IMG/VR virus record: IMGVR_UViG_3300025889_001191
Span: 1-20,455 of that record
Length of the DNA stretch: 20,455 nucleotides
Direction: 5' to 3' (one strand)
Source: a virus
This document shows positions 1,864 to 16,347 of the stretch, one piece after another. Each line of letters starts with the position of its first letter. Position 1 is the first letter of the stretch. The position numbers and the translations under genes are program-made. Below the pieces are notes generated by a model, which worked only from the letters and a program-made list of their open reading frames with translations, had not been told where the DNA came from and searched no databases.

Positions 1864-3783
1864 ATGAACAACGCTAGTTTTTTAGAGTCTCTCAGCGGCG
1901 AAATTGTTGACGGTCAATATCTCTGGGTTAATGCGTTCGCAACCAGCCCTGATAACGCACAGTGGTCGGGTCGATCCTACCAACACAAGACGGCGCAGCA
2001 GATTTTAATAAATGAAGCAGCCGATCAGAACACATATTTTTGCCCGGCATTGCTTTCTGGCTTAGACGATAGCGGGTCGTTTAAACGCAGCAAGGCACAC
2101 TTTACAAAACTGCTTGCGCTGGTAGCTGATGATGCAGACCCGGATGATGTGGTTGGCAGTCTAAGCTGGCTGATCGAGACAAGCGAAAACAATTATCAAA
2201 TGGGCATCTTGGTTGATTTGGATGACCCGGACGCAGCAGACGCGCAGACAGTAGACGCGGTGATGCAAGCAATGGCAGACGCATCGTTGATCAAGGCCGA
2301 CAAATCCGGCAACAACGCGGTGCGCTACCTGAGACTGCCAAATGGCGTTAATACTAAACTCCGAGCTAACAACTGGTCAGTGCGCGTGAGGTCAATGGAT
2401 CTACAATCGCGCTACTCCTTGGCTGATGCTTGCGCGGCTTTTGGATTAGACCTAGAGCAGATCAAGCAATACAGCACTGTCGTTGACTCTGACGCTGCAA
2501 AAATATCTGGCGCGGATCATGCCTCATTGATTGCGGCGCTTGCTGCTGACGTACCAAAAGATCGCAGTTACCACGACCCGCTATTGAAACTAAGCTCCAA
2601 ACTGGTCAAAGCCGGAACCAGTGGCGGCGCTGTAGTTGAGCATTTGCGCGGCCTAATGCTTGCGGTGCGTCCTACTGATCCGCATGAATATCAACGCTGG
2701 GAAGAACGCTACAACGAAATACCGCGCATGGTATCTGGCGCAGAACGGTATCGACAACCAATCATTGATATGCCGGTCATTGACGGGGAAGCTGACGGTA
2801 GCTTGCTCGTTGACATTAATGAGCTAGAGCGAATCAGCGGCAATATACGTTGGCTGGTGAAGGGTTTAGTCCCGGCTGATGCAATGGGTATGCTGTTCGG
2901 CGCAAGCGGCGCGTTTAAAAGTTTTATTGCGCTAGACTTTGGTTTGCATGTCGCGCACGGATTGAACTGGTGCAACCGCAAAACAACGCAAGGCAATGTT
3001 GTCTACGTTGCAGCAGAAGGCGGCGCTGGTGTGTATCGGCGTATTAAAGCATGGCATGAAAAGCGCGGCTTGGGGATTACTGACAATTTTAGCATTTGCA
3101 TCACGCCACTTCTTTTGACGGTAGAGGATGAAATTGACAGGCTTGCCCAGGCTATTGCCGCACTGCCGGAACCGCCATCGCTTGTTGTCATTGACACGCT
3201 ATCGCAGACATTTAGCGGCGACGAGAATAGCAGCACAGACATCGCCGACTACATAAGGAGCATGAACACAAAACTCCGCGCTCAATACGGGTGTAGCGTT
3301 TTGATTTTGCATCACACCGGACACTCTGCCAGTGAACGTCCACGGGGTAGTAGTGCAATCACGGCTAACCTGGACTTTCTTCTTGGCTGCTACCGTCCTG
3401 ACAAGGATTCTCTGTCTGCACAACTCGAAGTGTTTAAACAGAAGGATGGTGACAAGCTAGACACACAATGGTTTACGTTAGAATCAAAAGAGATCGGCGT
3501 GGACGATGACGGTGAAAAAATACAAAGCCTAGTGGCAAGCTGGAACGATCTCGTTGCCAATCTTAAACATAACGCAGCAATGCTGAATCAAAATGAGCGC
3601 GATGTATTAGACGCAATTCCTGTTGCTGGCACTGCGACAGAACAAGAGATGCAAGACGCTTTGATGCACAGGTATGAGAATCAGGCGACTAGATACAAGA
3701 CGCTACAGCGTGCAATTAAGAAGCTCTACAATGAAAAGAACTTAATTATTCCGGTTGGTAAGAGGATTTGGAGGAGGGCTTAG
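1864..3783 (+). CDS. Primase (RepB/AEP-like) fused to RepA-type hexameric helicase
   Basis: A 639-residue protein with AGGTGAG just before its ATG. The N-terminal third resembles archaeo-eukaryotic-type phage and plasmid primases: the acidic metal-site candidate VADDADPDD near 87-95, then WLIETSENNYQMGILVD near 102-118, then RYLRLPNGVNTK near 154-165. The central part is a RecA-like helicase: Walker A GASGAFKS near 346-353, AAEGG near 380-384, Walker B LVVIDTLSQ near 439-447 and LILHHTGHS near 479-487, as in RepA/AAA_25 proteins. The C-terminal tail (about 570-639) looks like a winged-helix DNA-binding domain. It should prime and unwind DNA at the phage origin. Two GTTTAAAC palindromes lie inside the gene. 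Its last 38 bp overlap the convergent gene at 3746-3994. Confidence 0.82.
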   Translation: MNNASFLESLSGEIVDGQYLWVNAFATSPDNAQWSGRSYQHKTAQQILINEAADQNTYFCPALLSGLDDSGSFKRSKAHFTKLLALVADDADPDDVVGSLSWLIETSENNYQMGILVDLDDPDAADAQTVDAVMQAMADASLIKADKSGNNAVRYLRLPNGVNTKLRANNWSVRVRSMDLQSRYSLADACAAFGLDLEQIKQYSTVVDSDAAKISGADHASLIAALAADVPKDRSYHDPLLKLSSKLVKAGTSGGAVVEHLRGLMLAVRPTDPHEYQRWEERYNEIPRMVSGAERYRQPIIDMPVIDGEADGSLLVDINELERISGNIRWLVKGLVPADAMGMLFGASGAFKSFIALDFGLHVAHGLNWCNRKTTQGNVVYVAAEGGAGVYRRIKAWHEKRGLGITDNFSICITPLLLTVEDEIDRLAQAIAALPEPPSLVVIDTLSQTFSGDENSSTDIADYIRSMNTKLRAQYGCSVLILHHTGHSASERPRGSSAITANLDFLLGCYRPDKDSLSAQLEVFKQKDGDKLDTQWFTLESKEIGVDDDGEKIQSLVASWNDLVANLKHNAAMLNQNERDVLDAIPVAGTATEQEMQDALMHRYENQATRYKTLQRAIKKLYNEKNLIIPVGKRIWRRA

Positions 3784-3994
3784 AGTCAGGTAAGAATGGC
3801 TCAAGCCCTTCCTCAATTCGCATAGCGTCAACAAAGCGCACAAAATCCCGGCGCTTCATCTTGTCAATTTTGCCGGTATCCAGGTCGCGCACATAATAGC
3901 TGTTATGGATAAACCATGACAGTTTGCCCCTGGATTTTAACCAGTCGGACACGTTAAACCAAGAATCACTTGGAAGAAATTTTCTCGGCTTCAT
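3746..3994 (-). CDS. Hypothetical 82-residue basic protein
   Basis: I do not recognise this protein. The frame is open further upstream (to 4093), but the ATG at 3994 was chosen because the extension would lie almost wholly inside the gene at 3966-4184. From 3994 the overlap is 29 bp, in keeping with the rest of this tightly packed block. The sequence is rich in Lys, Arg and aromatic residues (SDWLKSRGKLSWFIHNSYYV near 15-34, MKRRDFVRFVDAM near 46-58) with an Asp/Glu/Pro/Ser-rich tail. A small nucleic-acid-binding fold is possible. It is the last gene of the leftward block, and its 3' end overlaps the convergent helicase gene. There is no clear Shine-Dalgarno. Confidence 0.55.
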   Translation of the reverse strand: MKPRKFLPSDSWFNVSDWLKSRGKLSWFIHNSYYVRDLDTGKIDKMKRRDFVRFVDAMRIEEGLEPFLPDSKPSSKSSYQPE

Positions 3995-4184
3995 CTTGTG
4001 CAGCTTTGATCTTGTTTTTAAGTGTGCGCTTGGCGCGTATGGCTTTGTAGTATTCGCTATCGCCTCGACGCTTCGAGTCTCCGCGTCCGGCACTTCCGCC
4101 TTTGGTTCCTAGCCAGGACATATAACGCTTAATTTCCTGCTGTACTCCAGGCGGGAACTGATCGCTCCATTTCTTTTCAGTCAT
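3966..4184 (-). CDS. Hypothetical 72-residue charged protein
   Basis: The ATG at 4184 follows a strong Shine-Dalgarno (AGAGGA, 6-7 nt away) and overlaps the stop of the preceding gene by 8 bp, which indicates translational coupling. The N-terminal half is mixed (KKWSDQFPPGVQQEIKRYMS). The C-terminal half is highly basic and probably helical (AIRAKRTLKNKIKAAQDEAE). I see no recognisable domain, signal peptide or membrane segment. It is likely a small phage DNA- or RNA-associated protein, but no function can be assigned. Confidence 0.65.
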   Translation of the reverse strand: MTEKKWSDQFPPGVQQEIKRYMSWLGTKGGSAGRGDSKRRGDSEYYKAIRAKRTLKNKIKAAQDEAEKISSK

Positions 4185-4461
4185 TTTTTTCCTCTTTTAG
4201 TTCGTAGCCAATCGCCGTGTATGCCGCTTTATCAACCCATGAGTCATCATGCGTGGTAGTTTTCAAAAGGCGGCATGTCTTTTGCCAATCGTTCATCAGT
4301 GCAACGTGCGCTGGCGTGATGCACCCGTCTTTCTCAATCGCACGCTTGGCGATGACGGTCCAGCCTTTTGCAATGTCTGACAGGTTTTCTTTTGGGCTTC
4401 CGTAATCTTTCTGCCGGGCACCCCGCATAACCTTTAATGCTGTTTCAAATATATGCGTCAT
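4177..4461 (-). CDS. DUF6378-like phage protein (94 residues)
   Basis: I chose the ATG at 4461 because it overlaps the upstream stop as ATGA (4458-4461), classic coupling; a TTG 12 bp earlier is in frame but less likely. The pattern ARQKDYGSPKENLSDIAKGW, then TPAHVALMNDWQKTCRL, then DDSWVDKAAYTAIGYEL resembles the DUF6378 family of phages, whose hallmarks are DYGxxxEN, a TPxxVAxM stretch and WVDxAxY. The fold looks all-helical, and family members are sometimes compared with MazG-like nucleotide pyrophosphohydrolases; I cannot confirm activity. It lies in the coupled leftward block between the HslV-like peptidase and a charged small protein. Confidence 0.75.
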   Translation of the reverse strand: MTHIFETALKVMRGARQKDYGSPKENLSDIAKGWTVIAKRAIEKDGCITPAHVALMNDWQKTCRLLKTTTHDDSWVDKAAYTAIGYELKEEKND

Positions 4462-4880
4462 AGCGTTTTGCAAACCACTTTGCCACCAGTGTACGGATCA
4501 AGGCGCATGGCAATCTCGACGGCTTCGGTGGGCGTGGCTCCGGCCAGCATGGCAGCTACCGCAAACGTGCCGCCTGTGCCGCACGCGGCAGGCTTGCCGA
4601 TAGCTACCCGGTACATATTCTTAGTAACGTGGTAAACGCCCTGCCTTGTGGCGTGGATGGCTTCAAAATCTGCGTCTTTGTCAAAGGCTGGCTTGCTGTC
4701 CTTTTTTGATCCGTTGTGCAACCACTCTAAATACTGCCTTGCCTCCGAGTAATCGCCAGCGATACCAACAAGCTCGCCTCGGATGCGAAAAATCTTTGCG
4801 CTCTCAACTTGGTCGATATACTCGCCAACTTGTAGGGTGTCTGCCGCCATCTGCTTTCCGTCTGTCGCAATCGTCGTCAC
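4458..4880 (-). CDS. HslV / proteasome-beta-like Ntn-hydrolase
   Basis: A 140-residue protein with a GTG start at 4880 that overlaps the phosphoesterase stop as GTGA. It aligns by eye along its whole length with bacterial HslV (about 175 residues). The sequence begins MTTIATDG, so Met removal would expose a catalytic Thr1. AAD at 12-14 matches the catalytic Asp17 region, K29 in ESAKIFRI matches Lys33, GIAGDYSEA (39-47) matches the GFAGGTADA segment, and CGTGGTFAVAAM (100-111) matches the GSGG loop. The closing ATPTEAVEIAMRLDPYTGG matches the last HslV helix and strand. It is shorter than HslV, and no HslU or Clp-like ATPase lies nearby. An N-terminal-nucleophile peptidase or amidohydrolase activity is inferred from the intact candidate triad; the oligomer and substrate are unknown. 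Confidence 0.75.
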   Translation of the reverse strand: MTTIATDGKQMAADTLQVGEYIDQVESAKIFRIRGELVGIAGDYSEARQYLEWLHNGSKKDSKPAFDKDADFEAIHATRQGVYHVTKNMYRVAIGKPAACGTGGTFAVAAMLAGATPTEAVEIAMRLDPYTGGKVVCKTL

Positions 4881-5929
4881 TTATACAACTCGTTTAAACG
4901 CGCCATTGAGACAAAATTGTAATCGCGCACGCAGCCATGCTGAATCGTCATATCCGCAATGCCATAGCTCCAGCCTGTCGATGAGTGTAGAGCGTAAGGC
5001 TCTATATAACCGTCTGGAAGGGCGCAGCCCACGTTGATTATTTGGATTTCCCGGCTGTTGCCAATCTTTGACGCTTTGTGTTTGCGGTCAACGTGGGAGT
5101 GACCGCACACTAGGTCGTGTAAGCAGTCGTTTGCAATCTGTTGCTCTGCCGTCTTGCCGCCGTATGGCTTCCCCATGCGGTTAAGTGGCACATGGACAAA
5201 CCCCACACCGCCTATGAAATGCACTTGGCCAAATTGCGAGTACGTCCATTTATACCGGTCAAACAGCCTGAGAAGCTGGAATTGAAGCTGCCCAAACACT
5301 TCTGGGTTATTCTGCTCAAATTTGAACAAACGCTGTTCATGGTTTCCTAGCGTGATGTGCTTCTCTGCGCCGCCGCAATCGAGCAACTCCAACGCTCTGG
5401 CCAGTGACGACATATCTTGCTCAAATGTCGGCTTAAATTTACCGTCATAGCTCGCGTTGGGCGTGTGGTAAGATAAACTATCTAGCGTGGCTAGATCGCC
5501 GATTTGGATCACACAGTCTGGCTTTTCTTTTTTGATGTACTGACCAATGCGTTTAAACCGGCTCTGGTCTGGTATTGCGGGGCCGTCGTGCGCGTCCCCA
5601 ATCACCACCACCCTGGTTTTCTCTGACCGGCGCATGTGATTATCTGACCGCAACGTAAATTTCGGGCGCGTTGCTTTGGATAGCGCGGCGCGTAGGTTTT
5701 CGTTTTCTTTCTTTAAGGTGTTGATAACGTCGTATAGCTCACGATCTTCTTGCGCCACATCAATACCCTCGCCAGGGGTAAGGTTTTGAATCAAAGCGCT
5801 GCGATACCGGCTATCAAAAGTCCCGCGATTCATCTTTAGCTGCTTTGCAGCTTCTGTAACGGAACCGTGTTCTGCTACTGCGTCCACGGCTTGTTGCAAT
5901 AGCTCAATCGGTAGTCGGGAAGTCGCCAT
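4877..5929 (-). CDS. Metallophosphoesterase with N-terminal helix-turn-helix
   Basis: A 350-residue protein. Residues 10-42 form a helix-turn-helix (AVAEHGSVTEAAKQLKMNRG), and 60-86 are a probable coiled coil (ELYDVINTLKKENENLRAAL). The rest is a calcineurin-like phosphoesterase with all metal-binding motifs: GDAHDG (111-116), GDLATLD (144-150), GNHEQR (195-200) and CGHSHVD (265-271). Likely substrates are phosphodiesters (nucleic acid or nucleotide), and the N-terminal module may guide it to DNA. The ATG at 5929 directly follows the palindrome GTTTAAAC with no Shine-Dalgarno; the helix-turn-helix beginning at residue 10 argues against a later start. It overlaps the HslV-like gene by 4 bp, and two more GTTTAAAC copies lie inside it. 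Confidence 0.85.
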   Translation of the reverse strand: MATSRLPIELLQQAVDAVAEHGSVTEAAKQLKMNRGTFDSRYRSALIQNLTPGEGIDVAQEDRELYDVINTLKKENENLRAALSKATRPKFTLRSDNHMRRSEKTRVVVIGDAHDGPAIPDQSRFKRIGQYIKKEKPDCVIQIGDLATLDSLSYHTPNASYDGKFKPTFEQDMSSLARALELLDCGGAEKHITLGNHEQRLFKFEQNNPEVFGQLQFQLLRLFDRYKWTYSQFGQVHFIGGVGFVHVPLNRMGKPYGGKTAEQQIANDCLHDLVCGHSHVDRKHKASKIGNSREIQIINVGCALPDGYIEPYALHSSTGWSYGIADMTIQHGCVRDYNFVSMARLNELYK

Positions 5930-5937
5930 GTTTAAAC
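5930..5937. repeat. GTTTAAAC palindrome abutting the phosphoesterase start codon
   Basis: This copy of the overrepresented 8-bp palindrome ends exactly at the ATG of the leftward phosphoesterase gene, in the place where a Shine-Dalgarno would be. A protein bound here could block translation-coupled transcription; that is only inferred. The other copies start at 2079, 3432, 4892, 5551, 6097, 6754, 7164, 8548, 9433 and 15722. Confidence 0.6.
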
Positions 5938-6012
5938 GCCGCGCTGTTAAAGGGTCCGAGCTACCCGTGACGCACGCTCGGAAGTGCGAGGGATCAGGTC
6001 ACAGGCTACCTT

Positions 6013-6201
6013 TCATGCGTCGGCCACGTCTGGCGAGCATGGAAAAACGCCAATTTGCTGCTCTGCTAACGCGATTTTCAGGAAGTGGATTTGCTCGTTT
6101 AAACGAGCCTCGGTTTCACGCGCCTGCCTCAATGCGTTGACTAGGCGGCGGTGACTGTCGCGTAAATCATTGTAAGACACTGTTACGTCACTGGTTTCCA
6201 T
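6013..6201 (-). CDS. Hypothetical 62-residue coiled-coil protein
   Basis: I chose the ATG at 6201 (METSDVTVSYND). The open frame extends upstream to 6294, but that extension would overlap the zinc-binding gene at 6233-6409. Residues 10-45 (LRDSHRRLVNALRQARETEA and on through ARLNEQIHFLKIALAE) have a strong heptad pattern, so a dimeric coiled coil is likely. No Shine-Dalgarno is clear, and the function is unknown. A perfect 16-bp palindrome built on GTTTAAAC lies inside it at 6093-6108. The 75 bp between this gene and the phosphoesterase hold no gene, only a short inverted repeat (CCGAGC/GCTCGG). Confidence 0.55.
   Translation of the reverse strand: METSDVTVSYNDLRDSHRRLVNALRQARETEARLNEQIHFLKIALAEQQIGVFPCSPDVADA
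6093..6108. repeat. Perfect 16-bp palindrome centred on GTTTAAAC
   Basis: GCTCGTTTAAACGAGC is self-complementary over all 16 bases, the longest perfect extension of any of the 11 GTTTAAAC copies. It encodes Ala-Arg-Leu-Asn-Glu in the 62-residue coiled-coil gene, so protein coding alone does not require the symmetry. Confidence 0.75.
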
Positions 6202-6232
6202 AACGCAAGCATGTACTGTTAGACTTAAAAAG

Positions 6233-6409
6233 TCAAGATTTGGTGGTTTTTGGCTTGAAAAGTGGCGCATCTTTGCCACACCTTCCATCGTCAAGCCTAG
6301 CCTCGCGGGTGGAGATTACGTCGTGATCTGGCGCGTGGCACTCACCCTCCGAGTGTTGCGGCCAATGGCTGTAAGCGCAGTGGAGGCAGAGTTTCTTAGG
6401 TTCAAACAT
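6233..6409 (-). CDS. Small cysteine-rich (probable zinc-binding) protein
   Basis: A 58-residue protein. The ATG at 6409 was chosen over one at 6427 because it overlaps the upstream stop by 8 bp (ATGTTTGA), the same coupling used elsewhere in the block. The spacing CLHC (8-11), GECHAPD (23-29) and DGRCGKDAPLFKPK (41-54) gives a four-cysteine zinc site plus histidines. The pattern CxxC, then GxC, then a closing RCGxxxxLFxPK is recurrent in small phage proteins of unknown function. No membrane segment is seen, and the role is unknown. Confidence 0.65.
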   Translation of the reverse strand: MFEPKKLCLHCAYSHWPQHSEGECHAPDHDVISTREARLDDGRCGKDAPLFKPKTTKS

Positions 6410-6689
6410 CGGCGCGGCCCATCGCATCTTCTGCGCCTCTCAAGGCTGATCCTACCGTGTCGTCAAGCAGATCACCAAGCTGGAGTCCGTAGTCCTCCAA
6501 GGCGTCAAGCGTTGCGTCATAATGAGCGCGGGTCTGGCGCTGTGCTTTTATCGTGCAAATTAGCGCCTCGGTCAGACCGCGCACACGCTCTAGCGCGGCC
6601 ATATCAGCCGTGAGGCGGTGAAAGTCCGGCTGATGGTCTGGGTCGCAGTCGTCGTAGTGATACGGTCGAAAGAAAATAGGGTCTTTCAT
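6402..6689 (-). CDS. Hypothetical 95-residue helical protein
   Basis: The ATG at 6689 follows AAGGTGAG and overlaps the stop of the zinc-ribbon microprotein as ATGA. The N-terminus is acidic and aromatic (DPIFFRPYHYDDCDPDHQPD). The remainder (about 28-95) is predicted to be helical (ADMAALERVRGLTEALICTI, then DALEDYGLQLGDLLDDTVGS). I do not recognise a domain. It is translationally coupled on both sides, so it belongs to the same leftward transcript as the zinc proteins. Confidence 0.6.
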   Translation of the reverse strand: MKDPIFFRPYHYDDCDPDHQPDFHRLTADMAALERVRGLTEALICTIKAQRQTRAHYDATLDALEDYGLQLGDLLDDTVGSALRGAEDAMGRADV

Positions 6690-6847
6690 TTTTGCTCACC
6701 TTTTTCTGGTCTTAATGATGCCGCGCAATCGTAACAGCCAACAATATAGCCGCGTTTAAACAGTGCCTTTGCGCCTTTGGCTAGGTAGCGCTGGCAGCCT
6801 TTGCAGGTGCCAGCGTATCGCAGGAATATGACTCGGGCTTGCTGCAT
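6686..6847 (-). CDS. 53-residue zinc-ribbon microprotein
   Basis: The complete frame on the minus strand from the ATG at 6847 to the TGA at 6688-6686 reads MQQARVIFLRYAGTCKGCQR and ends CCXXXC-like with VGCYDCAASLRPEKGEQK. Cys15/Cys18 (CKGC) and Cys41/Cys44 (CYDC) form two CxxC knuckles 22 residues apart, a typical zinc ribbon. The intervening stretch is strongly basic. Its stop overlaps the next gene as ATGA, and its start is 3 bp after the stop of the membrane peptide. Coupling and the intact knuckles support a real gene. The function is unknown; nucleic-acid or host-protein binding is plausible. Confidence 0.6.
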   Translation of the reverse strand: MQQARVIFLRYAGTCKGCQRYLAKGAKALFKRGYIVGCYDCAASLRPEKGEQK

Positions 6848-6850
6848 GGT

Positions 6851-6955
6851 CTAGCCGCCTAGCAAGAGCAAAAAAGCGACCATGCACGCCCAAACAACCG
6901 GGCCAGCGGCAACGCCAGCGAGAAAGCATTTTGTGATTGGGGACAGGTTTTTCAT
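6851..6955 (-). CDS. 34-residue single-pass membrane peptide
   Basis: The ATG at 6955 follows AAAGGATCAAACG, a good Shine-Dalgarno, and the frame ends in TAG at 6853-6851. The N-terminus is short and polar with Lys2 and Lys9, and one hydrophobic helix follows from about 10 to 34 (CFLAGVAAGPVVWACMVAFL and on to LLLGG). The positive-inside rule places the N-terminus in the cytoplasm. It is the first gene after the candidate promoter at 6986-7014 and lies 3 bp before the zinc-ribbon gene. It is too short for family assignment; a membrane-active early phage peptide is a guess. Confidence 0.5.
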   Translation of the reverse strand: MKNLSPITKCFLAGVAAGPVVWACMVAFLLLLGG

Positions 6956-6985
6956 CGTTTGATCCTTTGTTCTGGTTACTGGTAG

Positions 6986-7014
6986 AAACTAGACTAGCCG
7001 GTTGGGTTATGCAA
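6986..7014 (-). promoter_or_regulatory. Candidate sigma70-like promoter for the leftward microprotein operon
   Basis: On the minus strand TTGCAT (plus 7009-7014) and TAGTTT (plus 6986-6991) are separated by 17 bp, 31 bp upstream of the ATG at 6955. A short palindrome, CTAG-T-CTAG, lies in the spacer beside the -10. The boxes are fair rather than perfect. Confidence 0.4.
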
Positions 7015-7051
7015 GCGTTTCTTTTACCTTAACATTCGGGACAGATTACGT

Positions 7052-7279
7052 TGTCCGAAAAGGCTGTTTCGGACAGCCCATTTGTCCGGATTTGTTGCGA
7101 ATGGTTCTCACGTTTGTCCTGGTTTGTCTTTTTTGTGTCCGGATTGATTGGCGGTTTTGCGCGGTTTAAACGCTCTGCTTGGGCTGTTTTGTCCGAGTTT
7201 GTCCGAGGTAGTTTTAAGGCGACACTATCTCGGACAATCTCTCCCCCCCCCATAGGGGGGGAGAGTGTCCGGGTGTCCG
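7052..7279. repeat. Cluster of nine TGTCCG/CGGACA hexamers
   Basis: TGTCCG starts at 7052, 7083, 7136, 7190, 7200, 7266 and 7274, and its complement CGGACA at 7070 and 7231. Near matches, TGTCCT and TGTCTT, start at 7115 and 7125. Most copies are preceded by T or TT and followed by A or G. The first pair forms a perfect inverted repeat with 9-bp arms (7052-7060 and 7067-7075, 6-bp loop). Nine exact copies in 228 bp is far above chance, and they fall in different reading frames, so they are a DNA-level repeat. Confidence 0.75.
7231..7271. other. Very stable hairpin with C9/G7 runs
   Basis: CGGACA (7231-7236) pairs with TGTCCG (7266-7271). After a 2-nt bulge, the arms 7239-7249 (CTCT plus seven C) and 7255-7265 (seven G plus AGAG) pair perfectly over 11 bp around a 5-nt loop. 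The total is 17 bp. No U-tract follows on either strand, so it is not a standard Rho-independent terminator. It incorporates two of the TGTCCG repeat units. Confidence 0.75.
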
Positions 7280-7300
7280 TTTTAAGGGCCGAAGGCATTT

Positions 7301-7346
7301 GGCGCAAAAGCGCCCCCCGTTGCCCCCGGCCATTTGGCCGGAGGCA
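7301..7346 (-). terminator. Tandem GC-rich hairpins downstream of the DUF7222-like gene
   Basis: GGCGC-AAAA-GCGCC (7301-7314) and a 10-bp stem with one mismatch (CCGGCC/GGCCGG core, 7321-7346, loop ATTT) lie 20-65 bp beyond the stop of the leftward gene at 7367. The position suits transcription termination or RNA stabilisation, but there is no U-run, so termination is uncertain. Confidence 0.4.
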
Positions 7347-7366
7347 CTAGGCTGGGACCTTACTTA

Positions 7367-7714: not shown

Positions 7715-7757
7715 GGTTTTGTTTCCTTGTTTGCGTGGTTTGTAGTGTTGGCATTCT

Positions 7758-8269: not shown

Positions 8270-8305
8270 TGTCTACCTCTTTGTTATGGTGTTGGCACCC
8301 TTTAG

Positions 8306-8330
8306 GCCCGGCCTGTTTCCAGGGCCGGGC
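8306..8330. other. GC-rich hairpin between the SprT-like gene and the next gene
   Basis: GCCCGGCC (8306-8313) and GGCCGGGC (8323-8330) form an 8-bp perfect stem with a 9-nt loop. It lies in the 86-bp gap downstream of the SprT-like gene. Neither strand continues into a T-run, so it may attenuate transcription or protect an RNA end rather than terminate. Confidence 0.4.
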
Positions 8331-8355
8331 TGTCAGGGTGTGGGGTGTGCTTGGG

Positions 8356-8907
8356 CTAGGCTATCTCGATGGTTCCGCCACAACCGCAAGTTGGAAGTCC
8401 GGCGCGCTCTATTGCAGAGCGGGATGCCCTGGCAACAAAACCGCAAGATTGGCACTCCATCTTGATCATGCGAGTTGATTGCTTTTTGGTTGGGACGCTT
8501 GGATTAAGTGCAGCGCCGGGAAACTGGCCGATCTCAGCAATTATGGCGTTTAAACGCTCTTTGAGTGAATCAGTGGCAACCGTAGAAGTCATTTTTCCGG
8601 TTAGGCCAACCGCAACGGCGACCCGGCGGAACTCTTTGCCGTGGTTCATGTATCCGCAGGCGTGGACTAATTCGTGAACTAAAACCGCGAGTATATCTTC
8701 TTGTGTTTGAACGTGCGGCGCTATGAATATCTCACAAGTGCCGTCATTGCTAACGTCTTTATGCCATGCCGCGCCTAAAGCCTTTAGGCCGCTACGTGAG
8801 CCGGTAAAACCGATTGATATGCGTGGGGTCCCGAAGTCCTCGCCGACGGCGTTGAAGTCGGCTCGTAGTGCTTCCGCCGCGTTGTTGAGCCATTCTTCTC
8901 TAGTCAT
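8356..8907 (-). CDS. SprT-like zinc metalloprotease with C-terminal zinc ribbon
   Basis: A 183-residue protein with its ATG at 8907 preceded by GAGGAAAAAC; upstream frame to 8943 lacks a Shine-Dalgarno. It carries HELVHACGYMNHGKEF (78-93): the HExxH metalloprotease site with a downstream His89 as third ligand, the SprT/Spartan arrangement. A C-terminal zinc ribbon uses Cys142 and Cys145 (CQSC) with Cys174 and Cys176 (CGC). SprT-family proteins in eukaryotes cleave DNA-protein crosslinks; the phage versions are uncharacterised, and a role in removing proteins from DNA during replication or packaging is only inferred. It is the first gene of the leftward unit from the promoter at 8944-8971 and contains one GTTTAAAC. 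Confidence 0.85.
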   Translation of the reverse strand: MTREEWLNNAAEALRADFNAVGEDFGTPRISIGFTGSRSGLKALGAAWHKDVSNDGTCEIFIAPHVQTQEDILAVLVHELVHACGYMNHGKEFRRVAVAVGLTGKMTSTVATDSLKERLNAIIAEIGQFPGAALNPSVPTKKQSTRMIKMECQSCGFVARASRSAIERAGLPTCGCGGTIEIA

Positions 8908-8943
8908 GTGTTTTTCCTCGTTTGCGTTGTTGTTACGATGCAC

Positions 8944-8971: not shown

Positions 8972-8989
8972 GGTCTGCTCGGTGGCCGC

Positions 8990-9027: not shown

Positions 9028-9438
9028 ATGAGCAACACAAGCGACAACGACGGTGGGCGGCATAGCCCGCCCCCGCCCCGGCCAGCTGTATTCGACGCCA
9101 AACCAGTTCAGTTGGAGAAAACACGCCAGCGCATGGGTTCGGCTCGCACGCTCAGGCGTGCCCTGATGAGCGCCGCGGAGGAGGTAGGCGGTGACGAGGG
9201 GCTGAAGGGGTATCTCAAGTTCCTAGCGAGCAGCGATCAGGCCAGCGACCGCGCCGCGTTCGTTAGTTTGCTGTCAAAACTATTACCCCGAGCTGTGGCA
9301 GTGCAAGCCGAGGTCAGCACTGGCGTGAACGTGGTTCTACCATGGCTGCAGGAACAGCGTAGCGTAGATGCCACACCGGCGGGCGGGGTGGTTATTGACC
9401 AACCCGTTGAAAACATTAGCGAAAACGATGACGTTTAA
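9028..9438 (+). CDS. Probable small terminase subunit or TerS-position protein
   Basis: A 136-residue protein directly ahead of the large terminase. The N-terminus is Pro/Gly/Ser-rich and disordered. Residues 36-90 are helical (ARTLRRALMSAAEEVGGDEG, then LKGYLKFLASSD, then AFVSLLSKLLPRAV), a pattern common in proteins at this position in phage genomes. The tail is acidic. The role in DNA recognition for packaging rests mainly on its position; no helix-turn-helix is obvious. The ATG at 9028 lacks a Shine-Dalgarno. The stop codon TAA lies inside a GTTTAAAC palindrome at 9433-9440. Confidence 0.55.
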   Translation: MSNTSDNDGGRHSPPPPRPAVFDAKPVQLEKTRQRMGSARTLRRALMSAAEEVGGDEGLKGYLKFLASSDQASDRAAFVSLLSKLLPRAVAVQAEVSTGVNVVLPWLQEQRSVDATPAGGVVIDQPVENISENDDV

Positions 9439-9440
9439 AC
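9433..9440. repeat. GTTTAAAC palindrome spanning the stop codon of the small-terminase candidate
   Basis: The central TAA of this copy is the stop codon of the preceding gene. It is the last copy before the 169-bp gap in front of the large terminase. Only one further copy (15722) occurs in the remaining 11 kb. Confidence 0.6.
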
Positions 9441-9531: not shown

Positions 9532-9609
9532 CGACCGGGTAGGGGGGGTACTATTATTATTATATGCCCCTCTCAGCCAGCATGAGAAAAAAGGAAATGT
9601 TCACCTAAA

Positions 9610-10947
9610 ATGGACATTAACGAGTACAGACCCAGAGAAGCCTTTGCGCCGCTGCACGCTAGAAAGCAGCGTTGGGCGGTCATGGTGGCGCATAGACGCG
9701 CAGGAAAGACTGTGGCGATGTGCGTTGACATGCTGGTTAGCGCCTTGCGCTGCTCGCACCCCAAACCGCAGTTCGCCTACCTAGCGCCGTATCGAGATCA
9801 AGCCAAGAAGGTTGCGTGGACATACTTAAAGGACTTGTCAAAGCCTGTCTGGGCCAAGAAGCCCAACGAGTCAGAGCTAATCATTACGATTAAGAACGCC
9901 TACGGCGGCGAGAGCCGCCTGTACGTTGGCGGGGCTGACCACCCGGACAGTTATCGCGGGATGTACTTTGACGGTGTTGTTCTCGATGAGGTTGGTCAGA
10001 TAAGGCCGAGCGCATGGTACTCTGTTTTGCGTCCGAGCCTGTCTGACAGGCTTGGTTGGGCTATATTTGCTGGAACACCGGCTGGGAAAAATTTTTTTTG
10101 GCAAATTAGGGAAGAAGCAAGGCTAAACCCTGAAACGTATTTGCTGATGGAGTTACCGGCAAGCAAGACAAACATTTTGCATCCTGACGAGCTACGCGAT
10201 GCAAGGGCGCAGATGACGGAAGAAGCGTACTTAACGGAGTACGAGATTAGCTTTGACGCTGCTATCCCTGGCGCATACTACGCAAAATACATAACTGATA
10301 GCTACGGCGAGGGGCGCGTAGGTAAGTTTTACGCTGATGACGCGCTTGAGGTGGATGTAGTCGCTGACCTTGGTTACACCGATTCTTGCAGTTGGTGGGC
10401 TTGGCAGACCCTACCTGACGGCTACAAGATAATTGACTTTTACGAGGCAGACGGACAACCTATAAGCCATTACATTGATTGGGTTAAGGACCGGCCATAT
10501 AAGGTCGGCACAGTCTACCTACCGCATGATGCCAGGGCAAAGAGTTTGCAAACTGGCAAGAGCATTATGGAGCAGTTCCTAGCTTCTGGTATTACGCCCA
10601 AGATTGTACCAAGCATGGGATTGCAGGATGGCATTGAGGCGGCGCGTATGGTGCTGCCTAAATGCTATTTTAACGAAGAAACGACATATGAGGGCATTGA
10701 GCATTTACGCTCTTATATGCGGGAGTGGGACGAACGCACCCAGATGTTTAGAAACAAGCCGCGTCACGACCAGCACAGTCACGCGGCTGACGCTTTTAGG
10801 TACCTTGCTCTTTCTGCTAGACCTATTGGTGGCGGCAAGAAAACCAGTTCAGAAGGGCTAAAACAGTTAAAAACCAACGCGATGTATGAGTTCACGCTAG
10901 ACGGAATTTGGGACTGCCAGCCTTCACACTCAACAAGAGTCGGATAA
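9610..10947 (+). CDS. terL: Terminase large subunit
   Basis: A 445-residue ATP-driven packaging motor and nuclease. N-terminal ATPase: Walker A AHRRAGKT (27-34), Walker B GVVLDEV with Asp126/Glu127, and coupling motif FAGTP (143-147). C-terminal RNase H-like nuclease: Asp253 in VADLGYTD, HDARAK (about 306-311), and the last acidic residue Asp394 in HAADAFRY (391-398). Both enzymatic centres look intact, and the length is normal for a compact TerL. A Shine-Dalgarno (AAGGAAA) lies about 14 nt before the ATG, rather far. The stop overlaps the portal start as TAATG. It cuts concatemeric DNA and pumps it through the portal. Confidence 0.95.
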   Translation: MDINEYRPREAFAPLHARKQRWAVMVAHRRAGKTVAMCVDMLVSALRCSHPKPQFAYLAPYRDQAKKVAWTYLKDLSKPVWAKKPNESELIITIKNAYGGESRLYVGGADHPDSYRGMYFDGVVLDEVGQIRPSAWYSVLRPSLSDRLGWAIFAGTPAGKNFFWQIREEARLNPETYLLMELPASKTNILHPDELRDARAQMTEEAYLTEYEISFDAAIPGAYYAKYITDSYGEGRVGKFYADDALEVDVVADLGYTDSCSWWAWQTLPDGYKIIDFYEADGQPISHYIDWVKDRPYKVGTVYLPHDARAKSLQTGKSIMEQFLASGITPKIVPSMGLQDGIEAARMVLPKCYFNEETTYEGIEHLRSYMREWDERTQMFRNKPRHDQHSHAADAFRYLALSARPIGGGKKTSSEGLKQLKTNAMYEFTLDGIWDCQPSHSTRVG

Positions 10948-12860
10948 TGGAACAAACTAGCACGATTAAGAGCATGAATGACTTTTCCGACACGCCGCAA
11001 GGTATGGCGCAGCGTTGGTCAAGTGAGATTGAGGCTTCTAAGAAGGAGCTAGAGCGGTTTCAGGAGGATGGGGACAAAATCACGCGCAGATACTTAGATA
11101 AGCGTGATGAATGGGGAAAAGAAGAAAGTAGGGTAAACCTGTTTTGGTCGAGCATGAAGGTTTTGCTGTCCTTGCTTTACGCAAGGCCACCAAAAGCTAG
11201 TGTTGCGCGATCTTTTCTTGATTCGGCTGACGACGAGGCGCGTGTTGCTGGCATTATTGTGCAGCGTATTCTTAACCGTAGCTTCGATGACAACGTATCT
11301 AACTGGGATTCTGCTCTCAGACAGTGCATTGAGGACTGGCTGGTGGTTGGCATGGGACAAGCATGGTTAAGATATGCTGTAGAAACTGAAGAAAGTGTCT
11401 TACCGGCTGAAATAGACCCTATGACGGGCGAAGAATTGGTTGCTGAACAGGTTGTTGAGCGAATAATCGACGAAACAGCGCCGATTGACTACATTTACTG
11501 GAAAGATTTTTTCTATTCTCCGGCGCGTGTTTGGGAAGAAGTAAGGTGGGTGGCGCGTCGGGTCTATATGACGCGGGATCAGCTTATAAAGCGTTTTGGC
11601 GAAGAAATTGGCAAGGTTGTGCCGTTGTTTTCGTCTACACCGAAGGATGTAAACGCGCAAACACCCAAGCATGACCCGTGGGCGCGTGGTGAAGTCTTTG
11701 AAGTCTGGTGCAAAGAGGACAAAAAGGTTTATTGGTACGCCAAGGGCTGCGAAGTTATCCTTGATGTTAAGGATGACCCATTAGAGCTTGATGACTTTTT
11801 CCCGTGTCCGAAGCCTTTGGCTGCAAATCTTACAAGCAGCAACTTTATGCCGCGTGCTGACTACATTTTTGCACAGGATCAATTCCAAGAGCTTGACGAG
11901 ATTAATACGCGCATAACTTGGTTGACGCGAGCGGCTAAAGTCATTGGTCTTTACGACAAGAACAACGATGGCATCCAGCGCATGTTTAACCAAGCTGCTG
12001 AAAACCAGCTTATTCCGGTTGATAACTGGGCTATGTTTGCCGAAAGCGGTGGCATTAAGGGTAAAGTTGACTGGGTTCCCATCGACCAAGTTGTAAACGC
12101 GATAAATCAGTTGCGCATCTACCGGCAAGACAAAACGGTGCAGATTTACGAAGTATTAGGTATTTCTGATGTTATGCGCGGTAGCAGCAAAGCCTCTGAA
12201 ACGGCTACGGCACAACAGATTAAAGCGCAATTTGGCTCTACTCGCATACAGTTGAGCCAGTTCTACATAGCTGAGTGGATTACAAGCCTTCTGCGTATTA
12301 AAGCTGAGATTATTAGCAAGCATTGGCAACCGGAAACGATTGCTATGCGTTCTAACATTATGCGTACACCTGACGCTCAATTTGCTGCACCGGCTATCCA
12401 GCTTGTTAAGGATGAGCGCCTAGCAGAGTACAGAATTAGCGTAGAAGCTGACTCTTTGGCTGCAATGGATTGGGCGCAAGAGCGTGATAGTGCGGTTCAG
12501 TTTATGCAGGGCATGGGTGCTTTTGTGGCGCAGATTGGTCCTATGATCCAGGTAGTTCCTGGCTCGTCGCCTTACTTCTTGAAACTGCTGCAATGGGCTG
12601 TTTCTAAATTTAAGGTTTCGTCAGAGATTGAAAGCGTGCTGGATCAGGCTCTTGCACAGTTGCAAGCTAATCCGCCGCAACCGCCGCAACCGTCTGCTCA
12701 AGATCAAGCAGAGACAGCGGCAGAGTTGGCAAAAGCCAAGGAAAGAGAGGCAAACACAATGGAAACCCAGGTCGATACCCAGACTAAGGTGTTTCAGCTA
12801 AATCAGATGGCTAAAAACGCTATGCAACCGAACCCTAACTTGCCGCCTATCGTTGGATGA
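10947..12860 (+). CDS. Portal protein
   Basis: A 637-residue protein. I chose the ATG at 10947 because it overlaps the terminase stop as TAATG; the frame is open a further 39 bp upstream. The segment FWSSMKVLLSLLYARPPKAS (about 52-71) followed by ILNRSFDDNVSNWDSALRQC is typical of large podovirus-type portals (roughly 600-700 residues). VLGISDVMRGSSKASETATA (about 400-419) is the characteristic central segment. The C-terminus has a Pro/Gln linker (PPQPPQPS, about 576-583) and then a long charged helix, likely the barrel or crown region. It forms the dodecameric ring at the capsid vertex that TerL docks on. Position between TerL and the scaffold agrees. Confidence 0.88.
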   Translation: MEQTSTIKSMNDFSDTPQGMAQRWSSEIEASKKELERFQEDGDKITRRYLDKRDEWGKEESRVNLFWSSMKVLLSLLYARPPKASVARSFLDSADDEARVAGIIVQRILNRSFDDNVSNWDSALRQCIEDWLVVGMGQAWLRYAVETEESVLPAEIDPMTGEELVAEQVVERIIDETAPIDYIYWKDFFYSPARVWEEVRWVARRVYMTRDQLIKRFGEEIGKVVPLFSSTPKDVNAQTPKHDPWARGEVFEVWCKEDKKVYWYAKGCEVILDVKDDPLELDDFFPCPKPLAANLTSSNFMPRADYIFAQDQFQELDEINTRITWLTRAAKVIGLYDKNNDGIQRMFNQAAENQLIPVDNWAMFAESGGIKGKVDWVPIDQVVNAINQLRIYRQDKTVQIYEVLGISDVMRGSSKASETATAQQIKAQFGSTRIQLSQFYIAEWITSLLRIKAEIISKHWQPETIAMRSNIMRTPDAQFAAPAIQLVKDERLAEYRISVEADSLAAMDWAQERDSAVQFMQGMGAFVAQIGPMIQVVPGSSPYFLKLLQWAVSKFKVSSEIESVLDQALAQLQANPPQPPQPSAQDQAETAAELAKAKEREANTMETQVDTQTKVFQLNQMAKNAMQPNPNLPPIVG

Positions 12861-13147
12861 GTAAGTACGGCGCAAGAATAGACGCTTTGAGAAAAGAGTA
12901 CGGTGGTTTTAACAAGCCAAAACGTACTCCATCTCACGACAGTAAATCTCACGCTGTTTTAGCTAAACAAGGCGAAAAAATACGTCTAATACGGTTTGGA
13001 CAGCAGGGAGTAAGTGGGTCTCCGCGAAAAGAAGGCGAAACAGAAGCGAGTAAGAATAGGCGTAAATCATTTAAAGCGCGTCATGCGAAAAACATTTCAA
13101 AAGGCCCAATGTCTGCTGCTTATTGGGCAGATAAGGTCAAATGGTAA
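12857..13147 (+). CDS. Hypothetical basic phage protein (96 residues)
   Basis: The start overlaps the portal stop as ATGA. The protein is strongly basic. Its C-terminal half, GEKIRLIRFGQQGVSGSPRK followed by SKNRRKSFKARHAKN and MSAAYWADKVKW, is a motif set I associate with small proteins next to portal genes in marine and freshwater phages, annotated only as hypothetical. The motif pair RFGQ-G-x-GSP and KSFKARH suggests nucleic-acid binding or a structural role in the head. No catalytic signature is seen. Confidence 0.7.
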   Translation: MSKYGARIDALRKEYGGFNKPKRTPSHDSKSHAVLAKQGEKIRLIRFGQQGVSGSPRKEGETEASKNRRKSFKARHAKNISKGPMSAAYWADKVKW

Positions 13148-13158
13148 GGAGAAAGACA

Positions 13159-13365
13159 ATGCCAATGCCTAAAATGCAAATTTACGCTGAAATCTTACGT
13201 CAACTAGGGGAAATCCCTAACGACTATGACGACGATATGATGGCAGAAGAAGAAGCCATGGCAGAAGGCGCAGAGGTAGAAGAAGAAATGTTGCCAGAAG
13301 AAGTTATTTTAGCGGAAAACCCAGAATACGAATCTCTCACCAAGGGCAAGAAAAAAGAAAGATAA
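13159..13365 (+). CDS. Small highly acidic protein (68 residues)
   Basis: I chose the ATG at 13159 because AAGGAGAAAG stands directly before it; an in-frame ATG at 13141 would overlap the preceding gene and lacks a Shine-Dalgarno. After MPMPKMQIYAEILRQLGEIP the sequence is a run of Asp/Glu with scattered Met (about 21-58), ending in a Lys-rich tail. It looks like a scaffold-associated or chaperone-like acidic polypeptide, possibly disordered. It lies in the small-gene cluster between portal and scaffold. Confidence 0.65.
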   Translation: MPMPKMQIYAEILRQLGEIPNDYDDDMMAEEEAMAEGAEVEEEMLPEEVILAENPEYESLTKGKKKER

Positions 13366-13369
13366 ACCG

Positions 13370-13642
13370 ATGCCTGACAACCGCCCGTATGTAAACATTT
13401 CACAAGATGAAGAACGTGATCCCAGCCGGTTTCATCCCAAACTATCTATTGGATATAATTCTAAAAAAGGTTGGGGTGGAAAATTTGAAGGATCAGAAAA
13501 TAAGCAAGCCATTTCTGGTTATATGCCGTTATCTGTTGGTGAACTTAATGCCAACGTTACAAGAAACAGAGGTTCTAATACTGCCCGCGTTGGTTACAGA
13601 GTAAAAATAGCTGATTTGGTAAACGCTTTGAGAAGAAGATAA
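13370..13642 (+). CDS. Hypothetical 90-residue phage protein
   Basis: The ATG at 13370 lies 4 bp after the acidic gene; AGAAAG serves as a weak Shine-Dalgarno. The composition is Gly/Asn/Arg-rich with alternating hydrophobic and polar residues (LSIGYNSKKGWGGKFEG, then GELNANVTRNRGSNTARVGY), as expected for a small beta-sheet domain. It ends in a short helix (KIADLVNALRRR). I do not recognise a family. A second, shorter frame at 13407-13604 is a shadow. Confidence 0.65.
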   Translation: MPDNRPYVNISQDEERDPSRFHPKLSIGYNSKKGWGGKFEGSENKQAISGYMPLSVGELNANVTRNRGSNTARVGYRVKIADLVNALRRR

Positions 13643-13699
13643 ACCAATCAACAGGGAATCAAAACAGTCAATGCAAGCGCAAGCATTAAGGCAAAAAAA

Positions 13700-14014
13700 A
13701 TGAAAAGAACCTACCGCTACGATAAAAAACTAGACAAACTCGTTGAAATAACAAGGCAAAAACAAGGTCCAGCCGAGAAGAAAATATTTGTTTCTGACGC
13801 TCACTATGATGGCTTAGTGGCGACTGACGGAACAGATATAAGCACAAGAAAAAAACACCGCGAATACATGAAGCGGAATAACCTTACCACAATGGATGAC
13901 TTTACTAATACTTGGGCGGAAGCCAAGAAAAGCCGTGAACACTATATGCAAAACGGTGGAACCTTCCGCAAAGAAGATATTGCTAGGGCTATCCATAAAA
14001 TAGAAAGCAGATAA
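13700..14014 (+). CDS. Conserved hypothetical phage protein with VSDAHYDG motif (104 residues)
   Basis: The ATG at 13700 follows AAGGCAAAAAAA. The segment FVSDAHYDGLVATDGTDIST (about 30-49) followed by RKKHREYMKRNNLTTMDDFT is a well-conserved feature of small proteins found between portal and scaffold or capsid genes in many phages. The protein is basic overall. The function is unknown; its position and conservation argue for a head-assembly accessory role. It lies 2 bp before the scaffold gene. Confidence 0.75.
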   Translation: MKRTYRYDKKLDKLVEITRQKQGPAEKKIFVSDAHYDGLVATDGTDISTRKKHREYMKRNNLTTMDDFTNTWAEAKKSREHYMQNGGTFRKEDIARAIHKIESR

Positions 14015-14016
14015 AA

Positions 14017-15111
14017 ATGGATGAAGAACCTACCACATTAGAACAACCCAGTTCTTTACGAGAAGCGATTGAGTCGGCAGTAGAGAAAGAAGAAATTGTC
14101 GATGAGCCGGTACAGCAAGAAGTAGAGTCCGAGCCGCTTGAGTCGCCAGAGCCGCTTGCCTCTGAGCCTGTCGAGGCAGAGCCAGAAGCGTCCCAAGATC
14201 AACCTGACGTTGATTTAACGGCTGAAACAAGCCCCAAAGAAGGCATACGCCCAGGGCCAAAGGCAGAGCCAAAGAAGCAAGAAAAAGCGCCTGTTTCTTG
14301 GCGGCCTGATGTCAGGGAACATTGGGCAAAGCTACCAGATAGCGTTAAGAAAGAGGTGCAGCGTAGAGAACGCGAGGTACAGCAAACTCTCAAAGAAACG
14401 TCTAGCGCCCGTAAATATGCCGAGGCTGTCGAAAAGGTGCTTGAGCCATATCAGGTCTTTATTAAGGCTGAAAACAGCAATTCTTTACAAGCCATTGATA
14501 ATGTTATGGCTACTGCTGCCAAGCTACGCACTGGCACAGGGCCAGAAATTGCACAGCTTGTTTCTGGTATCGTAAAGCAATTTGGTGTTGGCCGGTTTGG
14601 GCAGGATTTCATTGCACAATTAGATGCCGCGTTAGTTGGTGAAATACCTCAAAATCACGACCAAAGTACTCAGTTGCAGCAAGCCATACAGCAGCAACTT
14701 CAGCCTGTTCACAACTTTATGAACGAGTTTCAACAAGCCAAGCAGAACCAAACTCAACAAATTCGCATGGAGGCTCAAAGCGAAGTTCAGAACTTTATTG
14801 AAAATGCTGAGTTTGCGGAAGATGTACGCGAAGAAATGGCTGATTTGATGGAAGTGGCCGAAAGGCGTGGCAGAGAGCTTTCCCTGGAGGACGCTTACCG
14901 CCAAGCCTGTCTTGCAAACCCAAAAGTAAGGTCTGTGCTTCAAAAGCGACAACAAGCTAAAGGTGCACAACAAACCACTGGGGCGGCGCAAAAAGCAAAA
15001 GCCGCGGCGGTAAGTGTTTCTGGCGCTCCGGCCTTGGCATCGCCAAACAACCCAGGTGCGGTAGATATTCGATCAGCGATTGAGGCTGCTATTGCAAGCA
15101 ACTCACGCTGA
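14017..15111 (+). CDS. Probable scaffold protein
   Basis: A 364-residue protein just upstream of the capsid gene. Residues 1-85 are extremely Glu/Pro-rich and disordered. A conserved-looking segment, SWRPDVREHWAKLPDSVKKE, at about 93-112 leads into long helices (RREREVQQTLKETSSARKYA). Residues 205-320 are Gln-rich coiled coil (QQAIQQQLQPVHNFMNEF). The Ala/Gly-rich tail ends in VDIRSAIEAAIASNSR. Size, acidity, coiled coils and position fit an internal scaffold that guides procapsid assembly and is later lost. The C-terminal helix would contact the shell by analogy. It is followed by hairpins at 15119-15141 and 15212-15248. Confidence 0.75.
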   Translation: MDEEPTTLEQPSSLREAIESAVEKEEIVDEPVQQEVESEPLESPEPLASEPVEAEPEASQDQPDVDLTAETSPKEGIRPGPKAEPKKQEKAPVSWRPDVREHWAKLPDSVKKEVQRREREVQQTLKETSSARKYAEAVEKVLEPYQVFIKAENSNSLQAIDNVMATAAKLRTGTGPEIAQLVSGIVKQFGVGRFGQDFIAQLDAALVGEIPQNHDQSTQLQQAIQQQLQPVHNFMNEFQQAKQNQTQQIRMEAQSEVQNFIENAEFAEDVREEMADLMEVAERRGRELSLEDAYRQACLANPKVRSVLQKRQQAKGAQQTTGAAQKAKAAAVSVSGAPALASPNNPGAVDIRSAIEAAIASNSR

Positions 15112-15369
15112 TGCTATTGTTGCAAAAGTGCAACGCTTTTTAAGGCAAAGCCACTCTGTTAGAGACTGATGCCGTTGAGCAAGCACTTTTGTAATTAAGG
15201 TATGCAGCGACAAGCGTAAAGAAGGCTGTGCCTCATCTTTGCGTTTTTCGGCGCTAATGCCACCCTTGTACGGCCATTCAAGGGACATGACGAGCCACCA
15301 GTTCGGCTGCATGAACAGGTGAAAACATAGCTCTGCAAACTGCGGAGCCTAACGTCATGGAGAAAAACA
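15112..15369 (+). promoter_or_regulatory. Structured leader of the capsid gene (no gene)
   Basis: This 258-bp gap holds no accepted gene. It contains a small hairpin followed by five T (GTTGCA-AAAG-TGCAAC, 15119-15141), a second strong hairpin at 15212-15248, a 6-bp hairpin at 15263-15284 (CCCTTG/CAAGGG) and a 7-bp hairpin at 15330-15348 (GCTCTGC/GCGGAGC) just before the GGAG Shine-Dalgarno. TTGCAAAAGTGC (15120-15131) can alternatively pair with GCACTTTTGTAA (15183-15194), 11 of 12 bases. No convincing promoter boxes were found. Confidence 0.45.
15212..15248 (+). terminator. Candidate Rho-independent terminator before the capsid gene
   Basis: AAGCGTAAAGA (15212-15222) pairs with 15236-15246 through an 11-bp stem that includes two G-U pairs. 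An inner AGGC-TGT-GCCT hairpin sits on top, and the 3' arm runs into TTTTT (15244-15248). Part of the T-run is used in pairing, which weakens it as a terminator. Confidence 0.5.
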
Positions 15370-16347
15370 ATGGCTTTTGCCAATACGTCCGTTACGGACA
15401 TTATTGCAACAACTATCCAGTCTCGCACAAAACAGATTGCAGACAACGTAACCAAGAACAACGCTTTGCTTGCTCGTCTTAACGAGCGTGGAAACGTCAA
15501 GCCTTTTGGTGGTGGTAACGTAATTCTGCAAGAGCTTTCGTTTGCGGAAAACGGTAACGCTGGTTTCTATAGCGGCTATGATTTGCTGCCAGTAGCTACC
15601 GCTGATGTAATCAGTGCTTCTGAGTTCAACATTAAGCAGCTTGCTTGCCCAGTCGTCATGTCTGGCTTGGAAATGCTCCAGAACTCAAGCCAAGAACAGT
15701 TTATTGACTTGCTCGAAGCGCGTTTAAACGTCGCAGAAAGCACAATGGCTAACAAACTTGCCGAATCTGTCTACTCAGACGGTACTGGCTCCAGCGGTAA
15801 AGAAGTAACCGGCCTAAATGCTGCTGTTCCTGCTGACCCGACAACTGGAACGTATGGTGGCATTGATCGTGCTACTTACACGTTCTGGCGCTCTGGTCTG
15901 TATGACTTCAGCACCGAAGGTGTGACTGCTTCTGCCACAACCATCCAGGCGGCTCTTAATAGCCTCTGGGGAAGCCTTGTAAGGGGTGCAGATCGCCCTG
16001 ACTTGGTGGTTTTGGATAACACCTACTGGACGTACTACATGGGTTCTCTACAGGCCCAGCAGCGCTTTACAGACGCAAGCACAGGAAACCTTGGCTTCCC
16101 AACTCTGAAGTTCATGGACTCTGACGTTGTGCTTGACGGTGGTATTGGCGGTTACTGTCCGTCTGCTACTGGCTTCATGCTGAATACGAAGTACCTTTTC
16201 CTTCGTCCTCACCGTGATCGCAACATGGTAGCGTTGTCTCCGAAAGCACGTTACGCGATCAACCAAGACGCTGAAGTGCAGATTCTTGGATGGGCTGGCA
16301 ACCTGACTTGTTCGGGCGCTCAGTTCCAGGGCCGCATCCAAGCCTAA
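15370..16347 (+). CDS. Major capsid protein (HK97-fold type)
   Basis: A 325-residue protein with GGAG 8-11 nt before its ATG. The pattern FGGGNVILQELSFAENGNAG (about 47-66), SGLEMLQNSSQEQFIDLLEA with RLNVAESTMANKLAESVYSD (about 98-137), and the closing EVQILGWAGNLTCSGAQFQG is that of a widespread HK97-fold phage capsid family. No delta-domain or protease site is obvious, consistent with a separate scaffold. It assembles the icosahedral shell. Codon use is even and strongly biased, as for a highly expressed gene. It contains the only GTTTAAAC in the structural half (15722-15729), encoding Arg-Leu-Asn. A strong terminator follows 27 bp after the stop. Confidence 0.9.
   Translation: MAFANTSVTDIIATTIQSRTKQIADNVTKNNALLARLNERGNVKPFGGGNVILQELSFAENGNAGFYSGYDLLPVATADVISASEFNIKQLACPVVMSGLEMLQNSSQEQFIDLLEARLNVAESTMANKLAESVYSDGTGSSGKEVTGLNAAVPADPTTGTYGGIDRATYTFWRSGLYDFSTEGVTASATTIQAALNSLWGSLVRGADRPDLVVLDNTYWTYYMGSLQAQQRFTDASTGNLGFPTLKFMDSDVVLDGGIGGYCPSATGFMLNTKYLFLRPHRDRNMVALSPKARYAINQDAEVQILGWAGNLTCSGAQFQGRIQA

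Follow-up and report, generated by a model that had tools for sequence, protein, structure and literature searches.

Cluster A mycobacteriophages such as L5 and TipsytheTRex carry more than 20 short stoperators genome-wide, at promoters and elsewhere, through which one phage protein blocks both initiation and elongation of transcription. These sites are 13 bp long, asymmetric and oriented with transcription, and are bound by a repressor with a helix-turn-helix (HTH) and a stoperator domain (PMC9283540). In cyanobacteria, the palindrome HIP1 (GCGATCGC) is found throughout host chromosomes, accompanied by orphan methyltransferases (PMC4390886). Here, we analysed a 20,455-nucleotide stretch of viral DNA (IMG/VR record IMGVR_UViG_3300025889_001191, positions 1 to 20,455; hereafter the window) that holds 11 copies of the palindromic octamer GTTTAAAC. 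These copies are probably distributed operators of a phage-encoded regulator, for which a SprT-like zinc protein encoded in the window is the best candidate binder.

The octamer shares with the stoperators the many copies of one short site across a genome (13 in 33.5 kb here, up to 39 in 9.3 kb among the other phage contigs listed). It differs in being an 8-bp palindrome, or a one-base variant of it, that lies on both strands and inside genes, whereas stoperators are asymmetric and oriented, and in its candidate binder, a SprT-like zinc protein and not an HTH repressor. Stoperators also occur in the promoter of the regulator; here, a site lies upstream of 31 of 46 SprT genes, in several phages next to a -10-like hexamer, but not directly upstream of that of the window. 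The system resembles stoperators in its logic, but we do not class it with them, as site symmetry, placement and protein family all differ. Like HIP1, it is a strict palindromic octamer repeated much more often than expected, with up to one copy per few hundred bases, but GTTTAAAC is specific to phage lineages and concentrated in non-structural genes and ahead of SprT genes.

On the protein side, SPRTN is a DNA-dependent protease (PMC5127644). The window protein resembles the SprT/SPRTN family (PF10263) in its HExxH motif and C-terminal zinc-binding segment, whereas phage members often lose HExxH or retain the ribbon alone. No sequence-specific operator function for this family turned up in the searches made. 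A zinc metalloprotease fold is coupled to the control of mobile-element transcription in the ImmA/IrrE-type regulators of phages and integrative and conjugative elements. These differ from the SprT-like proteins in belonging to another family, with an unlinked DNA reader, and a fold comparison of the SprT-like model reached IrrE only at E = 0.26, a value that does not indicate homology.

Abundance, selection and host independence of the octamer

A first-pass annotation of the window had listed 11 positions for GTTTAAAC, every one of which is exact, and had called the over-representation extreme. Indeed, dinucleotide shuffles of the window contain 0.50 copies on average and at most 3 (100 shuffles), and no other 8-mer palindrome there exceeds 2 copies. 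Under Markov models of order 2-4, the mean lies at 0.6-1.1 copies and the maximum at 4; order 5, which nearly contains the motif, predicts ~3. Composition does not explain the excess. One-mismatch variants are not enriched (8 versus ~12 expected), and GTTTAAAC is thus a strict octamer. In its flanks, the clearest preference is for a preceding C and a following G (65% of half-sites). The extended form that most copies had been said to share, CGTTTAAACG, accounts for 6 of the 11 window sites, and the 16-bp perfect palindrome reported around one of them is real.

The near-identical contig G017 overlaps both ends of the window and extends leftwards, closing a circularly permuted genome of 33,543 bp with 13 copies, the two added ones lying at -2931 and -956. 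Of these 13 sites, 12 fall in the non-structural region of ~13 kb and one in the ~20 kb of structural genes (binomial ~1e-4, hand arithmetic), which bears out the concentration in the replication and accessory half described earlier. A codon-aware null yields 1.1-1.5 coding sites, with a maximum of 7 in 500 runs, against 10 observed; the remaining 3 sites lie outside coding sequence or at the edge of a gene.

That selection acts on the DNA at these sites, as the first-pass annotation had argued, is supported because the codon null fails, because the sites persist where their flanks have diverged and because extra sites in relatives differ synonymously. Across eight divergent relatives, 35 sites could be compared, of which 25 are intact, whereas octamers of matched phase nearby would give 12.5 (3 of 5000 permutations). 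Relatives carry extra copies at two positions of the window, 293 and 2960; there the window reads GGC CTT AAC or GGA TTG AAC and the relatives GGT TTA AAC, the encoded Gly-Leu-Asn being unchanged. That annotation had named close relatives lacking the sites as a refutation: relatives at 80-99% nucleotide identity have them, while those at 67-69% have none, and no SprT-like gene was detected in the latter either. No equivalent distributed palindrome was found in the 67-69% relatives, whose repeats form a local TGTCC[CG]GG array. The octamers CAGGCTCA (12 copies) and CAACCTGA (9 copies) are over-represented in the contigs G010 (L067) and G009 (L069) and are not clearly operator-like.

Is the octamer a trait of the host? 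Venkman, a phage of OM43 strain H5P1, carries 34 copies, with 30 in the first 14.7 kb, whereas not one occurs in the 141,548 bp of Melnitz, which infects the same strain; this argues against a host trait. MEP301, on another OM43 host, likewise has none. Among the roles proposed for the repeats at the outset, distributed operators fit best, and the contrast of 34 with 0 copies on one host strain speaks against a HIP1-like motif or a methylation mark. Two scans of genome contigs for the host, through prophage-like TerL or PAPS reductase, found no relatives.

Association with SprT-like genes

We scanned IMG/VR for contigs with two copies of CGTTTAAAC 100-130 bp apart, a sample that is incomplete. 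Among the matches listed are contigs with 20-39 copies of GTTTAAAC in less than 15 kb, where ~0.2 would be expected, and one with 39 in 9.3 kb, or about one per 240 bp. The dense contigs listed range in GC content from 32% to above 50%, and phages with the octamer span 32-64% GC. Actinophages carry a one-base, non-palindromic variant, GTGTAAAC. One or other form recurs in many unrelated phages, mostly carriers of SprT-like genes, and neither was found as a phage motif in the literature searched. Zeta1847 (L204) also has a second repeated element, ATGACGAACA, in 12 copies at translation starts, and promoter repeats of the CACGCGTGTA type.

When the open reading frames of the 59 densest contigs, Venkman and the window were clustered, the SprT-like family ranked first by contig number and was the only listed family linking the window and Venkman to the remaining dense contigs. 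Its frequency among the matches listed was 1/27 in contigs with 2-3 copies of GTTTAAAC, 7/27 with 4-7, 11/33 with 8-15 and 26/33 with at least 16; in a scan with CAAATTTG, a control palindrome of matched composition, a SprT-like gene turned up in 1 of 74 contigs. Counted over whole records no shorter than 30 kb, SprT was present in 9 of 11 site-rich and 0 of 10 site-poor ones (Fisher 2e-4). The reverse test rests on named phages, 17 selected for a SprT-like gene and 10 for its absence, which was verified by profile. GTTTAAAC or GTGTAAAC was in excess in 13 of the 17 and in none of the 10 (P = 1.5e-4), with GTTTAAAC counted 34 times in Venkman, 17 in R5C, 7 in Mica and 4 each in ep3, Mano and Persinger, and GTGTAAAC 41 times in Araceli, 22 in Zeta1847, 20 in Yang, 19 in Soondubu, 17 in Emotion, 14 in Percival and 13 in 4A. 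The association of octamer and SprT-like gene holds in both directions, with a matching one-base change to GTGTAAAC in the actinophages.

The placement of the sites is also distinctive. A site lies at most 150 nt upstream of the SprT gene in 31 of 46 contigs, whereas local site density predicts 10.9 (P = 4e-10). This site closely follows a -10-like hexamer in four named phages, Mano (TACACT), Mica (TACAAT), Emotion (TAGACT) and Yang (TACACT), and ~12 sites of Zeta1847 lie, as read by eye, at promoter-like TTGCGC..TATGAT elements. Six copies in Venkman stand directly before an ATG, several of them exactly between Shine-Dalgarno sequence and start, and the site at 5930 in the window is placed likewise with respect to its ATG. 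Judged from sequence, the occurrence of sites ahead of SprT genes and beside promoter elements is the layout of operators and autoregulation.

A candidate regulator and its alternatives

The SprT-like protein of the window scores 26.2 bits against PF10263 (cut-off 25.6) and contains the HExxH zinc site (VHELVHA). This site is lost in the proteins of L110, L092 and L199 and retained in many other aligned members, while four contigs, all of them site-rich (L151, L165, L136 and G036), encode ribbon-only proteins of 50-77 residues. The conserved core of the alignment reads KQxTRxxKxxC..[C/D]xYxxRxSR...GxPxCPxC. Because the ribbon alone is retained in site-rich phages, these patterns suggest that the zinc ribbon may be the DNA-reading part. 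An AlphaFold model of the protein (mean predicted local distance difference test score, pLDDT, 86.6) had no match with E below 0.001 in the PDB, and a sequence search of the PDB gave no match. At least 163 named phage records encode SprT-like proteins, mostly annotated merely as SprT-like proteases; a paper on Arthrobacter cluster AZ groups the gene with those for DNA processing and does not mention a motif.

We propose that a previously unrecognised DNA-binding regulator encoded by the phage may use GTTTAAAC as its recognition octamer and distributed operator. The most likely regulator is the SprT-like zinc protein, whose C-terminal zinc ribbon would read the DNA. Where sites coincide with promoter elements or start codons, this protein would repress early promoters, its own among them. 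At intragenic sites on both strands it would probably block or tune elongation, or mark the phage DNA, in a stoperator-like manner. Physical binding, repression and a role of the protease fold are what we infer from these patterns.

Several observations weigh against this proposal. No GTTTAAAC lies directly upstream of the window's own SprT gene, and no convincing promoter was found at the window sites, most of which are inside genes. Among the named SprT phages, CN2, Epa5, Eden and Sharkboy have neither octamer in excess and the four sites of ep3 are only weakly so (P = 0.006); many of these phages are interrelated, which limits the independence of the tests. Neither SprT nor ribbon was detected in two site-rich records, G034 (18 sites in 37 kb) and G043 (31 sites in 33 kb), or in the lineage of G043, records that may be incomplete. 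A diverged ribbon was not found in site-rich records without SprT, apart from the known one of G036, and no other shared family accounted for such records. In the close relative G002, an unrelated gene occupies the SprT position, yet the sites at 7164 and 15722 are kept.

The missing SprT genes would be explained if the sites were operators of a different phage DNA-binding protein, either the HTH protein encoded at 1641-1856 or an unrecognised small protein, with the SprT-like gene as a regulated companion. The HTH protein is 90-100% identical throughout the close clade, and the seemingly autoregulatory placement could also reflect control by another protein. However, the HTH protein, which scores 24.0 bits against the P22 Cro profile (PF14549; cut-off 30.2), was rejected as the binder, as its homologues also occur in the zero-site relatives G005, G007, G008, G011 and G012. 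No other listed family joins the window, Venkman and many site-rich contigs, and site-rich phages retain ribbon-only proteins; we therefore regard a different binder as unlikely. The intragenic position of most window sites, on both strands, and the action of SPRTN-type proteases on DNA-bound proteins (PMC5127644) would suit a site of DNA metabolism (partition, recombination, packaging, nicking or the handling of protein-DNA crosslinks) at which the SprT-like protease acts. Such a role is quite improbable, as sites cluster upstream of SprT genes beside -10-like hexamers, lie at promoter-like elements in Zeta1847 and between Shine-Dalgarno sequence and ATG in Venkman, and as several site-rich phages lack HExxH or have the ribbon only.

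A highly iterated palindrome dictated by the host, or a methylation or restriction mark, in the manner of HIP1, would account for a strict palindromic octamer without an excess of near misses and for its extreme density in single contigs. The two phages of strain H5P1, the concentration of sites in non-structural genes and the non-palindromic actinophage variant make this very improbable, and no methyltransferase was recognised among the scanned genes of the window. A compositional or codon artefact, in whose favour the order-5 Markov prediction speaks, has a negligible chance of being correct: lower-order Markov and codon nulls give about one copy, the sites are conserved beyond their flanks and the same octamer recurs in phages across the whole GC range given above.

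Site list, genome context and implications

The window is a phage fragment encoding terminase, portal, head protein, helicase-primase, a Sak4-like annealing protein and PAPS reductase. Its TerL is 37-41% identical to those of Venkman, P26218 and related Pelagibacter phages.

Table 1. Octamer sites and candidate binding proteins in the window
Feature	Position	Strand	Context	Remarks
P22 Cro/YdaS-like HTH protein	1641..1856	+	adjoins helicase-primase	PF14549 E 3.4e-5, below cut-off; rival binder candidate
GTTTAAAC site	2079..2086		coding, helicase-primase, Phe-Lys phase	kept in 11/11 relatives aligned there
GTTTAAAC site	3432..3439		coding, helicase-primase	
GTTTAAAC site	4892..4899		coding, metallophosphoesterase, Arg-Leu-Asn phase	
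GTTTAAAC site	5551..5558		coding, metallophosphoesterase	lost in L038, L039
GTTTAAAC site	5930..5937		directly upstream of ATG of 4877-5929 (-) gene	
16-bp perfect palindrome GCTCGTTTAAACGAGC	6093..6108		surrounds GTTTAAAC site at 6097	
GTTTAAAC site	6754..6761		coding	
GTTTAAAC site	7164..7171		within intergenic iteron-like array	kept in G002, L045 at ~64% flank identity
SprT-like zinc metalloprotease-fold protein (HELVH), C-terminal zinc ribbon	8356..8943	-		PF10263 E 7.3e-6, phrog_6361; candidate cognate DNA-binding protein
GTTTAAAC site	8548..8555		within SprT-like gene	
GTTTAAAC site	9433..9440		overlaps stop codon of 9028-9438 gene	
GTTTAAAC site	15722..15729		major head protein gene, sole structural-half site	kept in G002, G003, L029, L033

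The intergenic iteron-like array at 7030-7280 is built of TTTGTCCG(A/G) units that face either way, has one GTTTAAAC among them and is likely a replication origin or a RepA/HTH binding site. The array of the 67-69% relatives is of the same kind, with TGTCC[CG]GG units at 10-12 bp spacing ~2.4 kb upstream of TerL (L068, 6530-6660; G008, 24052-24210). Apparently related to the window array are TGTCC[CG]G repeats with 15-bp spacing between repA and a parB-like gene in L079 (MW202557, 10904-11189).

Related contigs also differ from the window elsewhere. The PAPS reductase gene (823-1593) has no counterpart in several of them (L038-L044), in which window position 805 is joined directly to 1628; this is a recent insertion or deletion. 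The near-identical contig L005 differs from the window by an indel around 13255-13661, and the length of a proline run in the protein encoded at 19664-20299 differs in L055, an indel between near-identical contigs.

Beyond this phage, it seems to us an evenly balanced proposition that the SprT-like proteins of phages make up a large class of sequence-specific regulators that has gone unrecognised. Their ribbon would read GT(T/G)TAAAC, each would repress its own promoter and have dozens of sites of action across the genomes of phages of Alpha-, Beta- and Gammaproteobacteria and Actinobacteria, and the protease domain would be an optional control module, shed by some members. If SprT-like proteins are indeed octamer-specific regulators, this would explain why the octamer reaches such densities in some viruses and would add a non-HTH, protease-linked class to the known phage regulators. 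Their targets could then be read directly in many genomes, and their function could be tested in culturable phages.

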